Shown: positions 1,810-48,887 of the stretch, one piece after another | Layout of the letters: every line of letters starts with the position of its first letter | Position numbering within the stretch: the first letter of the stretch is position 1 | Source: Posidoniimonas corsicana | Lineage (GTDB): Bacteria > Planctomycetota > Planctomycetia > Pirellulales > Lacipirellulaceae | NCBI RefSeq assembly: GCF_007859765.1 | Contig: NZ_SIHJ01000001.1 | Span: 1,508,067-1,572,066 of the forward strand | Reading direction: 5' to 3' | Length of the DNA stretch: 64,000 bases | The notes under the pieces: model-generated | Databases searched by the model: none | Told to the model about the DNA's origin: nothing | Seen by the model: only the letters and a program-made list of their open reading frames with translations | Program-made: the position numbers and the translations under genes

Positions 1810-3168
1810 CTAGGCGGGCGTTTCTGCCGGCGGCTCGGCGAGCTGCTCGGCGGCGGCCTGTTCGACCTCCGGCTTCTCGTGGAACGCGGCCAGGAAGAGT
1901 ACGAAGATCACGGCCGCCATGCCGGCGGGCAGCAGCCAGAATTCCTTCCACTGGGCCATGGTCTCTGAGAGCAGTGCGGGGTCGACGCCCTCGGGGATGT
2001 TCTGGCTGAACATCTTGGTGAACGCCTCGAAGAAGCCGACCTCGGTCTCGGGGCGGGCGGCGGCGATGGCGGCCTCCAGGTCGGCCTGGCTGGTCATCGT
2101 CGAGTTGAAGCGGTCGCCGGCCACCATGTAGCCGAAGAACATCCCCACGCCCTGGGTGAAGAACACCAGCATGCTCTGCGCCTGGTTGCGCACGGCCGCC
2201 GAGGCCTTCTGGTCGGTGTACATGAACCCGGTGACGAAGAAAAAGTCGTAGCAGATGCCGTGCAGCAGCACGCCCAGCAGCAGCATCCAGGTGACCTGGT
2301 CGGGCGCGCCGAAGGCGAACAGCAGGTACCGGCCCACCCAGGCCGCCATGCCGACCAGGATCATCCACTTCACGCCCAGGCGGCGGAAGAAGAACGGGAT
2401 CAGGATCATGAAGATGATCTCGCTCATCTGGCCCAGCGTCATGGTCGACGCGACCTGCTCGAAACCGGTCTGCAGCAGCAGCTTGGAGGTAAAGCTGTAG
2501 TAGTACGCCAGCGGGATGCAGATGAGCGTCGAGCAGACGATGAACACCAGGAACGGCACGCTCTTCATCAGACGGAACGCGTCGAGCATCAGCAGGCTGT
2601 TCATGTCGATCGGCTGGCCCTTGGCGGGGGGCGGCGTGTGGGGCAGCGTGAAGCTGTACACGCCGAACAGGCCCGACGCGATCGCGCCGAGCCAGAGGAT
2701 CTTGGTCGACGCCGACCAGCCAAGGGCGCCCACCATCAGGCCCGCGACGATCCAGCCGATGGTGCCCCACACGCGGATCGCGGGGAACTTGTTCTGGTCG
2801 TCGATGTTGGCGAAGGCGATCGAGTTGCCGAGCCCGAGGGTCGGCATGTAGCACAGCATGTAGGCGATAAACAGCCACACGGCCAGCGGGCCGTCGCCGG
2901 CCTCGACGGCGCGTGTGGCGGCGACCATCAGCCCCGCGCCAATCAGCATCAGCACGCCCTGCACGATCTGCGACGGGAACAGTCGGTCGGCGATCAGGCC
3001 CAGGAACAGCGGCGCGATGATCGCCGCGATGGGGGCGCTCTGGTAGGCGCTGCCGATCGAGTCGTCGAGCCCCTGGGCGCCGAGGCAGATAGCCAGGGTC
3101 GCGAACCACGCGCCCCAGGTGAAGAACTGCAGGAACATCATCACGCTGAGTCGTGTTGCTACGCCCAC
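1810..3168 (-). CDS. MFS transporter, nucleoside:H+ symporter-like family
   Basis: About 452 residues with roughly 12 hydrophobic segments, beginning VATRLSVMMFLQFFTWGAWF, which resembles the start of the NupG/XapB-like nucleoside H+ symporter branch of the MFS. The GTG at 3168 is chosen because AAGGAG sits 6 nt upstream (revcomp of 3175-3180); the longer open frame before it is Arg/Pro-rich and lacks transporter character. The central cytoplasmic loop contains TLPHTPPPAKGQ, and the C-terminus is Glu/Ala-rich. Inference: it takes up a nucleoside or sugar-like product; its position directly upstream of the sulfatase suggests the pair handle one scavenged substrate. Confidence 0.85.
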   Translation of the reverse strand: MGVATRLSVMMFLQFFTWGAWFATLAICLGAQGLDDSIGSAYQSAPIAAIIAPLFLGLIADRLFPSQIVQGVLMLIGAGLMVAATRAVEAGDGPLAVWLFIAYMLCYMPTLGLGNSIAFANIDDQNKFPAIRVWGTIGWIVAGLMVGALGWSASTKILWLGAIASGLFGVYSFTLPHTPPPAKGQPIDMNSLLMLDAFRLMKSVPFLVFIVCSTLICIPLAYYYSFTSKLLLQTGFEQVASTMTLGQMSEIIFMILIPFFFRRLGVKWMILVGMAAWVGRYLLFAFGAPDQVTWMLLLGVLLHGICYDFFFVTGFMYTDQKASAAVRNQAQSMLVFFTQGVGMFFGYMVAGDRFNSTMTSQADLEAAIAAARPETEVGFFEAFTKMFSQNIPEGVDPALLSETMAQWKEFWLLPAGMAAVIFVLFLAAFHEKPEVEQAAAEQLAEPPAETPA

Positions 3169-15103: not shown

Positions 15104-15233
15104 AGCCGGTCGGATAGGTTCGACGACTGAGCGGGTGCTCCCGCGAGTGTAGCCGATCGGCGCAGCTGAAATCGACCAGAATCGGCCGTGGGAGACGGCG
15201 GAGTGAACACCACCTTCTGCCGATTTCTTTGTC

Positions 15234-15491
15234 GAAACCGGCCACCCGGCGCGGTCCAATGAAAGGTGGCTGCGGGTGGCGTTGCGCGCGGAAGCCACCA
15301 CCACTCCCCACAACTGCCGGCGGAAGACTTTTGTCCCTATCGATGCGTTGCCGGGGACAAAAGTCGCTGCTCGTTGGGAACGCCGTTTGGCGTAAGCTAT
15401 TACTGCGCAAGGGTTAATCGCGAAGCGACTCGACCGGTAGGGGCCGACTTTTGTCCCTAAGGATCGTTAGCGCCAAAATGGACAAATGTCC
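15234..15491 (-). repeat. Paired-hairpin intergenic repeat, copy 1
   Basis: Read on the minus strand: hairpin 1 (GGACATTTGTCC at 15480-15491, loop 22 nt, GGGACAAAAGTC at 15446-15457), a core of 80 nt, hairpin 2 (GACTTTTGTCCC at 15354-15365, loop 16 nt, GGGACAAAAGTC at 15326-15337), a 65-nt spacer, then the 27-bp block at 15234-15260 that ends GTGGCCGGTTTC. Reverse orientation is supported because the minus-strand sequence after the first hairpin (GTCGGCCC) and within its loop (GGCGCTAACGATCCTTA) resembles copy 2. It lies between the acyl ligase start and the DJ-1 gene end, in non-coding DNA. Confidence 0.8.
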
Positions 15492-19527: not shown

Positions 19528-20319
19528 CTACGGCTGGGCCGGCTCGGCGAAGTTGAAGCCCTCGGCGGCCCACTCCGCGATCTGCGAGGACGGGATGGTG
19601 TGCACGTGGCCGTCCGCGAACAGGTAGTTGGCGCAGTTGCCAGAGTGCCGCTCGATGGCGAGGTCGTGCTGGATGCGGTCGAGCGTGGAGGCCTCTTCGC
19701 CGTGGTCGTGGTCGTCGTGCCCGTGATCATCGACGAACCACTCGTGCGAGTCGACGTGGTCGAAGAACGCGTGCTCTTCTTCATGATCGTCGGCGTGGTC
19801 GTGGTGCTCGGTGGGCGGCGCCTCGAAGAGCATCATCGTGTTGTGGCTCTGCGGCAGGTCGAACAGGTTGCGGACCGAGGCGTCGTACGCGGGGCGTGGG
19901 TCGGTCTTGATCACCAGATAGGCGTTGAACGCGTAGCTGGAAACATGCTGACGCTCGAGCAGCGTCTCGGGTCGCAGGTCGTCGGGGCAGATCCGGATGC
20001 TGTCGGACTGCTCGGTGTACGGGGCCAGCGAGTAGATCCACGACACCGGCTCATCGTGGTGCTCGTCGTCATGCTGGTCGTCGTGATCATCGCCGTGGTC
20101 GTGGTCGTGCTCCGACAGACCGACCTCGGGGAAGCGGCCCCGGTGGTCGTTCGCGTACAGTTGGATTGCGATGCCAAGCTGCTTGAGGTTGTTGGAGCAT
20201 TGCATCCGGCGGGCCGACGCCCGGGCGGCCTGAACCGCAGGGAGCAGCAGCGAGATGAGCACGCCGATCACGGCGATCACCACCAGCAGCTCGACGAGTG
20301 TGAAGGCTTTCTTGTTCAT
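19528..20319 (-). CDS. DUF1559 pseudopilin-like protein with His/Asp-rich regions
   Basis: 263 residues. The N-terminus is a type IV pilin/pseudopilin signal ([19 protein letters not shown]) followed by [20 protein letters not shown], the mark of planctomycete DUF1559 proteins; the C-terminal [10 protein letters not shown] motif is also family-typical. Two long clusters of His, Asp and Glu, at about residues 69-90 and 165-206 (for example [20 protein letters not shown]), are unusual and suggest metal binding outside the cytoplasm. The next gene upstream on the same strand is a small Cys-rich exported protein, so the pair may form a metal-related unit. DUF1559 proteins are abundant in planctomycetes and mostly uncharacterised. 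Confidence 0.87.
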
Positions 20320-33790: not shown

Positions 33791-34090
33791 GAGTTTTGTC
33801 CCGTTCTGCGCTATCGATTCTTAGGGACAAAAGTCGGCCCGTACCGTCATCCGCCATTGCCGTAAGTTGTTTTTGAATAACGGCTTGCCGCGCCGCGTCT
33901 GGCCTGCGGGCGGCGACTTTTGTCCAAGGTGGTGCGCCCATAGGGACAAAAGTCGGCGATGCGAGATTGCGCGGAGCTCATCCTGACCGGCGACGCGGCG
34001 CAGCGCCTACCGAGCGGGTCCGGTTTCCAAAGAACGAGCGGACGGAATCCGCCGCATGCCACTATTGGAAGCGACCAGGTGGCCGGTTTC
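33791..34090 (+). repeat. Paired-hairpin intergenic repeat, copy 2
   Basis: Hairpin 1: GAGTTTTGTCCC (33791-33802), loop 21 nt, GGGACAAAAGTC (33824-33835). Core of 79 nt. Hairpin 2: GACTTTTGTCC (33915-33925), loop 17 nt, GGGACAAAAGTC (33943-33954). After a 109-nt spacer the 27-bp block occupies 34064-34090 (starts ATTGGA, ends GTGGCCGGTTTC). It lies in the roughly 880-nt gap between the PLP enzyme gene and the first DUF1593 gene, which are divergent; nothing else was recognised in that gap. Confidence 0.82.
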
Positions 34091-34340
34091 TACAACAAAG
34101 TCACCTTTGAGCCGGACTCGTTCTGTGGGTCAGGTCATCGACGGCATGCTGACGACCGGCGGCGCAGCAGCGGACCAGGCCACGCCGCCGTCGTGAGAAC
34201 AGGATTGGACGGACGATCGTTAGTAGTCATTCCTTGAATTGAGACACGTTTGCTGAAAACCGATAGGCGAGTCGATAGATTTGTTGCATCTGCCGTTGAT
34301 TGATCTGACGGCCGTCTCTCTCTTCGTTCGCATAAGAGTG

Positions 34341-48476: not shown

Positions 48477-48520
48477 ACCGGCCCGCGCACCACCCTGTAG
48501 CCGACGATTCTGTCCGAAGT

Positions 48521-48779
48521 GTTTTGTCCAAAAACACGCGTGGAGGGGACAAAACTCGGGGCGTATGATCCCTTGTTTTTTCTGTAAGTGCTTTCGCGCT
48601 AGTCGATTATGTTGACCTCCTCGGGAACGGCCTGCCGGGGTTTTGTCCGTTCTTGCCAATCAAGATCGGACAAAACGGCAGTGCCGTGACGCTTGGCGCC
48701 GGGGTGCTCGCTATCCCTGACTTCGATAGGCGTCCAACCGCCCGCACCCCGTATTAGAACGCGCTGGGTGGCCGGTTTC
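48521..48779 (+). repeat. Paired-hairpin intergenic repeat, copy 3
   Basis: Hairpin 1: GTTTTGTCC (48521-48529), loop 17 nt, GGACAAAAC (48547-48555). Core of about 84 nt. Hairpin 2: GTTTTGTCC (48640-48648), loop 19 nt, GGACAAAAC (48668-48676). The 27-bp block follows at 48753-48779 (starts ATTAGA, ends GTGGCCGGTTTC). It shares GTAAG 27-28 nt after hairpin 1 with copy 2. It lies between the convergent purU and TPR genes. Confidence 0.8.
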
Positions 48780-48887
48780 AGCAACTAACCGAGCGAAAGC
48801 CGCCCCCCGATTGGACGCGACACCTGGCGAGACAGCCCCGCAGCGGATTGCATTCCGCTCTCCTAGAAGCAGGTCGGACGAGCACGC

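Follow-up and report, generated by a model that had tools for sequence, protein, structure and literature searches.

Bacteria seldom carry large families of dispersed repeats, and among the known ones many are tied to RAYT transposases. ERIC and BOX are modular intergenic repeats without a known mobiliser, as is the element described here, which differs from both of them in sequence, taxon and architecture. BIME-1, which by its layout appears to be the nearest functional analogue, consists of inverted REPs with an IHF-binding segment between them, and RIBs are found at the ends of transcription units (PMC2817692). As far as that source describes them, BIME-1 and RIBs share with our element two inverted palindromes at a fixed distance with a segment between them, intergenic position, high copy number, location near transcription-unit ends and occasional tandem modules. 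However, our element has another sequence, no GTAG foot and no pairing covariation, and it carries a far, oriented 36-bp block after a spacer of variable length. The other close system is the class-3 TnpAY1 REPIN/REPtron of planctomycetes and Acidobacteria, for whose planctomycete proteins a CnGA foot is reported (PMC6006769). The likeness lies in the phylum, in the inverted hairpin pair and in a CnGA-like foot at some stems, whereas at the 24 loci that we read no Y1 gene is bracketed by the hairpins and the gene of locus L022 has another repeat. A search of titles and of the first part of abstracts found no description of our repeat, which may have been published elsewhere. It appears to be a new repeat family of the BIME/RIB-like kind, seemingly without kinship to the REP/BIME repeats of E. 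coli, and its asymmetric anatomy is unusual.

The window, that is, the whole stretch of 64,000 nucleotides analysed, corresponds to C1:1508067-1572066 of the genome of Posidoniimonas corsicana (G000; 6.77 Mb in 13 contigs). A first-pass annotation had described three oriented copies in it, and all of them were found where it placed them and on the same strands (Table 1). Our recount of the 27-bp block also agreed with its identities of 21/27 and 24/27, and our gene calls with the tandem, divergent and convergent contexts that it gave for the three copies. However, the core, given there as 79-84 nt, measures 86, 85 and 86 bp between the 8-bp arms 2 and 3 of copies 1, 2 and 3 respectively. Between arms of the same length, the loops of copies 1, 2 and 3 are 23, 23 and 17 in hairpin 1 and 18, 18 and 19 in hairpin 2.

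Table 1. Coordinates of the element copies (positions in the window) and of the insertion sequence that enters the arms.
Feature	Position	Strand	Basis or remark
Copy 1, whole element, subtype B	15225..15491	-	arm2-arm3 pair match at C1:1523421, block at 1523300
Copy 1, arm 1, one mismatch (ATTTGTCC)	15480..15487	-	
Copy 1, arm 2	15449..15456	-	
Copy 1, core, 86 bp	15363..15448	-	
Copy 1, arm 3	15355..15362	-	
Copy 1, arm 4	15329..15336	-	
Copy 1, block, 36-bp conserved stretch	15225..15260	-	sequence and block logo
Copy 2, whole element, subtype B	33791..34099	+	
Copy 2, arm 1	33794..33801	+	
Copy 2, arm 2	33825..33832	+	
Copy 2, core, 85 bp	33833..33917	+	
Copy 2, arm 3	33918..33925	+	
Copy 2, arm 4	33944..33951	+	
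Copy 2, block	34064..34099	+	sequence and block logo
Copy 3, whole element, subtype A	48508..48788	+	degenerate extra outer arm at 48508-48515
Copy 3, arm 1	48522..48529	+	
Copy 3, arm 2	48547..48554	+	
Copy 3, core, 86 bp	48555..48640	+	
Copy 3, arm 3	48641..48648	+	
Copy 3, arm 4	48668..48675	+	
Copy 3, block	48753..48788	+	sequence and block logo
IS5-like copies	L059:267-1258; L026:154-1147; further places		

Read toward the block, the unit consists of arm 1 (TTTTGTCC), a loop, arm 2 (GGACAAAA), the core, arm 3 (TTTTGTCC), a second loop, arm 4 (GGACAAAA), the spacer and the block. The four-arm parse succeeded for 86 of the 92 block-anchored copies, 6 being left unparsed, and among these 86 the gap between arms 2 and 3 is typically 85±1 bp, with 84-86 in 73 copies (83 in 7, 84 in 9, 85 in 44, 86 in 20 and 87-91 in 6). 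The loop of hairpin 1 clusters at three lengths, namely 17 (23 copies), 23 (38 copies) and 31 (16 copies), that of hairpin 2 is 17-19 in 74 copies, and the spacer varies from 20 to 235. Arms 1, 2, 3 and 4 are exact in 75, 75, 81 and 49 copies respectively; since arm 4 is so often degraded, the element need not hold a symmetric complex on four sites. Arrays with three consecutive hairpins make up 2 of 86 in G000 and 1 of 17 in the congener G001. There are two subtypes, A with GTTTTGTCC arms and B with CTTTTGTCC arms, and the 103 copies of both species with exact arms 2 and 3 split into 59 A, 38 B and 6 mixed, so that these two arms co-vary by subtype (C/G or G/C in 97/103). The centre of the core resembles a loose dyad that depends on the subtype, as judged by eye from the consensus.

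Regarding the block, it is conserved from -14 to +21 around GGTGG, with the logo ATTrGACCgCGC..GGTGGCCGGTTTCtAC.A.AAA, and it stands on one side of the hairpins only. We read 99 arm-anchored copies from the 128 arm pairs of the genome (about 30 were left out), and on the better side the score for the 36-bp block exceeds 20 in 95 of them and lies between 10 and 20 in 2, so that 97 are above 10 and two, L115 and L117, fail. None of 1000 random 450-bp windows exceeded 10, the best reaching 0.7. Most of the 99 copies were picked through their block, and the block matrix was trained on exact-block copies; therefore the independent test is that of the 27 non-exact copies outside the training set, 25 of which score above 10. 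Furthermore, the exact 13-mer of the block is present in 24 of the 50 pairs first listed on C1, which were picked regardless of the block. Of the 22 hairpin pairs read in G001, which have 21 distinct blocks, 13 exceed a score of 20, 3 lie between 10 and 20 and 6 range from -5.4 to 8.8; these six are still above the 99th percentile of the null (-7.4), although they gain from taking the better of the two sides. In 97 of the 99 copies the block was found within 450 bp, and no gene separates it from the hairpins; an autonomous version carrying a gene, which we also considered, was found in none of the 99 copies, each searched over 450 bp. The hairpin pair at L115:1375-1502, which has no block, lies within a weakly supported ORF and was possibly captured by a gene.

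The copy number in the genome is high. The hairpin pattern TTTTGTCC-N8-36-GGACAAAA occurs at 216 places, some of them overlapping, and the pattern GGACAAAA-N72-100-TTTTGTCC, which joins arms 2 and 3, at 128, the reversed controls giving 0 in both cases. The exact block GGTGGCCGGTTTC was matched 92 times (43 forward, 49 reverse), and at 85 of these sites an arm precedes it by no more than 400 bp. Among the other seven, an insertion sequence interrupts the copies L026 and L090, and at L101 a surplus block directly precedes a complete element, both being on one strand.

The loose pair pattern was found in 11 of 79 genomes, with 128 matches in G000, 89 in G001, 24 in G028, 8 in G027 and 1-2 in seven others, a level that reversed controls also reach; the arms of G028 have a different arrangement. 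The strict three-arm pattern is present in 4 of the 43 genomes of Lacipirellulaceae, G000 included, with forward/reverse counts of 86/98 in G000, 41/46 in G001, 2/0 in G027 and 1/0 in G011. Thus, among the 43 genomes compared within this family, high copy number is a trait of the genus. The blocks of the Lacipirellula copies L199 and L219 and of the G011 copy L129 are diverged and still recognisable.

Pattern matches also turned up in other collections. The viral collection has 25 stretches that match the three-arm pattern, by pattern match alone, and a wider scan of genome contigs gave 0 stretches for the first pattern and 32 for the second, from which we read the four planctomycete ones (L199, L216, L218 and L219) and two of the eight from Desulfobacterales (L202 and L208). 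These last two are look-alike TTTTGTCC-hairpin arrays on MAG contigs of another phylum (L202:4117-4704 and L208:211-560), whose core is a long inverted repeat, with 91-92 bp between two neighbouring hairpins in L202; since the scan fixed the range of spacings, this likeness is partly built in. The Pirellulales MAG contig of L218 has a dense cluster of GGACAAAA and TTTTGTCC words in another arrangement (2759-3101).

Genes around the copies were called with a simple finder based on codon usage, and 81 of 87 oriented copies are flanked by genes within the fetched piece. Convergent, tandem and divergent contexts account for 26, 41 and 14 of these 81 copies, against 29, 101 and 29 of the 159 gene junctions in a 212-kb region taken as background. 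The median distance is 52 or 92 bp to the 3' end of a neighbour, compared with 177 or 170 bp to a start. Gaps to the genes are positive except for one small overlap on the left (15 bp) and one on the right (14 bp). The copies are intergenic and favour gene 3' ends. Within tandem contexts their orientation shows no preference relative to transcription (21 vs 20). The earlier view of a dispersed, oriented, intergenic element that is not tied to one gene was borne out, and the same architecture extends beyond the window. Along contig C1 there is no significant strand bias (19 forward and 32 reverse blocks) and the spacing does not differ from random (gap variation P 0.09); as the positions are random-like, an ordered role in the nucleoid gets no support.

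The arms of copy 3 had been interpreted in the first-pass annotation as compensated changes, arguing for selection on pairing. Actually these changes mark the subtype, and within the subtypes there is no excess of compensation: in the 24 gap-free copies of subtype B, changes on both sides were seen in 1 pair (0.9 after shuffling), and the named hairpins have a covariation score of 0.012, the same as for shuffled data. Among the 86 block-anchored copies arm 4 carries 62 changes, and for none of them does arm 3 carry the identical change; where arms 1 and 2 are both changed at one position pairing is kept in 1 of 5 cases, and for arms 3 and 4 in 0 of 2. For half-hairpins, core halves and block halves alike, pairing inside a copy is no better than pairing across copies; the exception, one of 16 sub-tests, is the core quarters of subtype B (p 0.04). 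Two column scans, the first with z up to 6.9 in scattered pairs and that of the block with z up to 7.6, showed no ridge along a stem. The subtype test, the first column scan and the half-pairing tests of hairpins and core drew on copies with exact arms 2 and 3, a selection that masks compensation in these arms; however, the block-anchored tests led to the same outcome. More than about ten genome copies of one architecture and an excess of compensatory changes had both been expected at the outset; the first stands, with around 130 copies (128 hairpin pairs and 92 exact blocks), and the second does not, as hairpins, core and block all lack covariation. The arms behave like fixed words, as protein sites do.

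Comparison with the congener shows how the copies persist. The region around the window is syntenic with G001:C12 over about 200 kb, at roughly 70-92% identity, and eight loci at which arms appear to occupy matching positions in both species were compared. Arms 1-3 are intact or nearly so in both species at three of them, L121 and L043 with 24/24 identical positions and L104 with 23/24, although arms were located in G001 by their closeness to the consensus, which biases this identity upward. The lengths 23/85/18 are unchanged at L043 and L104. The core is 0.81 identical at L121 and 0.48-0.49 at the other two, and the block 0.64 (L121), 0.72 (L043) and 0.64 (L104); the spacer identities, which stand without a computed null, are 0.50, 0.42 and 0.60 in the same order, and the flanks of L121 are at 0.48-0.55. 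At L036, window copy 2, L084 and L088 the counterpart in G001 is partly decayed, doubtful or of the other subtype, the locus of copy 2 holding an element with subtype-A-like arms, and L057 was unparsed. The orientation of the element relative to the conserved flank agrees at the loci that allowed a check, namely L121, copy 2, L104 and, judged from the flank beside arm 1, L036, L043 and L088.

The first-pass annotation had proposed to look for empty sites in relatives. A flank match within 1 Mb of G001 was obtained for 24 copies, 4 with both flanks and 20 with one. The arm pair is absent at the four loci with both flanks aligned (window copy 3, L044, L105 and L120), which have at most one arm-like word between the flanks, that of copy 3 being mismatched. 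Of the 20 one-flank copies, 5 keep exact arms within 900 bp, the other 15 having none. So, the same-locus and flank comparisons point to both local constraint and turnover, the latter being high. Similarity among the copies of G000 is limited: of the 15 best-scoring pairs among 86 copies, 14 align over 264-382 bp at 70-78% identity and one over 174 bp at 88%, with no near-identical copies among the 86 compared (about 40 copies were outside this comparison). Yet arms 1-3 are exact in most of the 86. The congener also has a second palindromic repeat with GCGCTGGTTGGAGG ends (for example at C12:190310 and C2:176424), which occupies two loci, L120 and L044, where G000 has the four-arm element. Another repeated stretch of about 130 bp lies at 20174-20308 of the window, as part of the gene 19528-20319 on the minus strand, with at least 39 further matches in G001.

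Our preferred reading, which we hold with moderate confidence, is that of a BIME/RIB-like dispersed element, a fixed array of short motifs recognised in duplex DNA by a putative protein. Its strongest competitor is a REPIN-like selfish element moved by a Y1 HUH transposase (RAYT or class-3 TnpAY1), whose hairpins would be inverted REPs processed as single-stranded DNA and whose block would be baggage or the far end. The element indeed resembles REP/BIME in its imperfect palindromes, arranged as inverted pairs, extragenic, in high copy and occasionally in arrays. Regarding the foot, the GTAG or CGTC tag of REP/BIME is absent. Next to the stem, arm 2 has CCGA as its inner flank in subtype B (T at +2 in 37/38 and C at +3 in 38/38) and either CnGA (T at +2 in 39/59) or CnGG in subtype A; in subtype B and part of subtype A this resembles the foot of the planctomycete class 3 as reported in PMC6006769. 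The foot of arm 3 is CGA in subtype B, with the first C in only 20/38, and is not CnGA-like in subtype A. As the tag is absent and no cognate RAYT was found at the Y1 loci read, the element is not a member of REP/BIME with RAYT.

The Y1 genes themselves give a mixed picture. There are 5 Y1_Tnp matches in G000 and 6 in G001, and the Y....Q motif is present in L020 and L022. Within about 1.5 kb there is an element at 1 of the 5 Y1 loci of G000 and at 2 of the 3 fetched from G001, compared with 160 of 2000 random pieces of G001, so that the proximity of 3/8 in the genus is a weak excess on small numbers. However, the arms bracket none of the 24 Y1 loci read, including the 5 of G000 and 3 of the 6 of G001, and G013 and G005, without the pair pattern, have 13 and 11 Y1 matches. 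The class-3-like gene at L022:1349-1974 (also in L079) adjoins an element, but it is bracketed by inverted CCCGACGCGTAAGCGAGGG, likely the REP of this Y1 gene itself; having its own repeat, it probably neighbours the element by chance, and we rejected the adjacency as a RAYT link. Furthermore, near-identical copies are lacking among the 86 compared, and so are compensatory changes, whereas the REPs of RAYTs preserve palindromy according to PMC2817692. The inner flank of arm 2 keeps a REPIN-like origin in consideration, as a possible but rather doubtful explanation. We know of no counterpart of the block in REPINs.

A structured RNA, either a small RNA, a terminator or a 3' UTR element, would account for hairpins with fixed loop lengths and for the preference for 3' ends, and in exact copies the 3' half of the block is self-complementary beyond shuffled letters (-8.18 vs -5.64). 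A block hairpin is therefore possible, but the variation lends it no support. The RNA fold that the first-pass annotation had put forward was rejected on four pairing tests across hairpins, core and block, and arm 4 mutates freely; moreover, the absence of a preferred orientation in tandem contexts and, within the window, of any match to 4227 Rfam families at gathering score also speaks against a structured RNA, which we consider unlikely. Quite unlikely, too, is a MITE of a DDE transposon with its ends at arm 1 and the block: the copies are alignable over their full length and their presence differs between the congeners, but no target-site duplication or terminal inverted repeat was found at any tested offset, the peaks of the scan being letters of arms and block, and neither a near-identical pair nor a gene between hairpins and block was seen in the copies mentioned above.

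An insertion sequence of 992-994 bp with ends AGCTCTGTAGAAA, which has 31 end matches in the genome, enters the arms. Its transposase resembles the IS5 group, with 133.2 bits for NF033579, just under the curated cut-off of 140, and 55.4 bits for PF01609, above the cut-off. Out of 30 distinct ends, 28 directly adjoin ACAAAA[C/G]T or the complementary sequence, and a pair among these 28 forms the boundary to a 100-bp miniature copy; the remaining two ends read ACATAAGT and its complement and may belong to one insertion. In L059 and L026 the sequence itself shows an 8-bp duplication. The 8-mers ACAAAA[C/G]T in 212 unselected kb all lie within elements (17/17), and those of the 3-kb loci fall on an exact arm with 11 exceptions among 211, so plain target preference suffices to explain the pattern. 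No arm words were found in the loci of the homologues L315-L318 from other genomes, and L319 has one, which is distant. The miniature copy (L026:1156-1255) has the same inverted ends and stands beside the insertion sequence, with ACAAAACT on both sides. Of the 26 contig ends in the assembly, at least 15 have an end of the insertion sequence close by. That the arms are landing pads kept or spread by this inserter, instead of host sites, is very improbable in spite of the abutting ends and of the eight letters that its end TTTCTACA has in common with a frequent form of the block (by eye), as the insertion splits the element on entry, the nearest homologue in G001 (48% identical) has no arms in its 3.9-kb locus while that genome has 89 pairs, and target preference alone explains the pattern. 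REP-targeting insertion sequences have already been reported (PMC1525189). ISPsy8, ISPpu9/10 and the IS1202 family (PMC1525189, PMC10132070) likewise have copies in a repeated or conserved site. Compared with these REP- or dif-targeting elements, ours is IS5-like, makes an 8-bp duplication and has a new repeat as its target. It is an example of a transposon specialised on a dispersed repeat.

Returning to the fixed array of short motifs as our preferred reading, a binding site for a dimeric protein fits best among the three suggestions of the first-pass annotation, of which a non-autonomous mobile element is possible as well. A sequence-specific dimeric protein would bind the arms, two dimers sitting on arm pairs about 93 bp apart, and perhaps a second protein would bind the loosely palindromic centre of the core or the block. 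Such a site might influence how the chromosome is organised or what happens where transcription units end, in the manner of the IHF and gyrase sites of E. coli BIMEs. The family may once have spread by transposition and would now be mostly fossil as a mobile unit. More speculatively, and on balance doubtfully, the roughly 130 copies could be genus-specific docking sites for a putative multi-protein DNA complex, in which pairs of dimer sites at a 93-bp step around a central dyad, with an oriented block across a flexible spacer, would be kept by selection on sequence and spacing, as a planctomycete counterpart of gyrase/IHF sites with an origin independent of REP/RAYT.

At some loci the exact motifs and their spacings are kept in both species while the intervening DNA looks near-random, which hints at a role for the host. 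The short exact sequence of the arms is a direct bait for finding the putative binding protein. Planctomycetes have condensed nucleoids, and the element could help to test how these bacteria organise their chromosomes.
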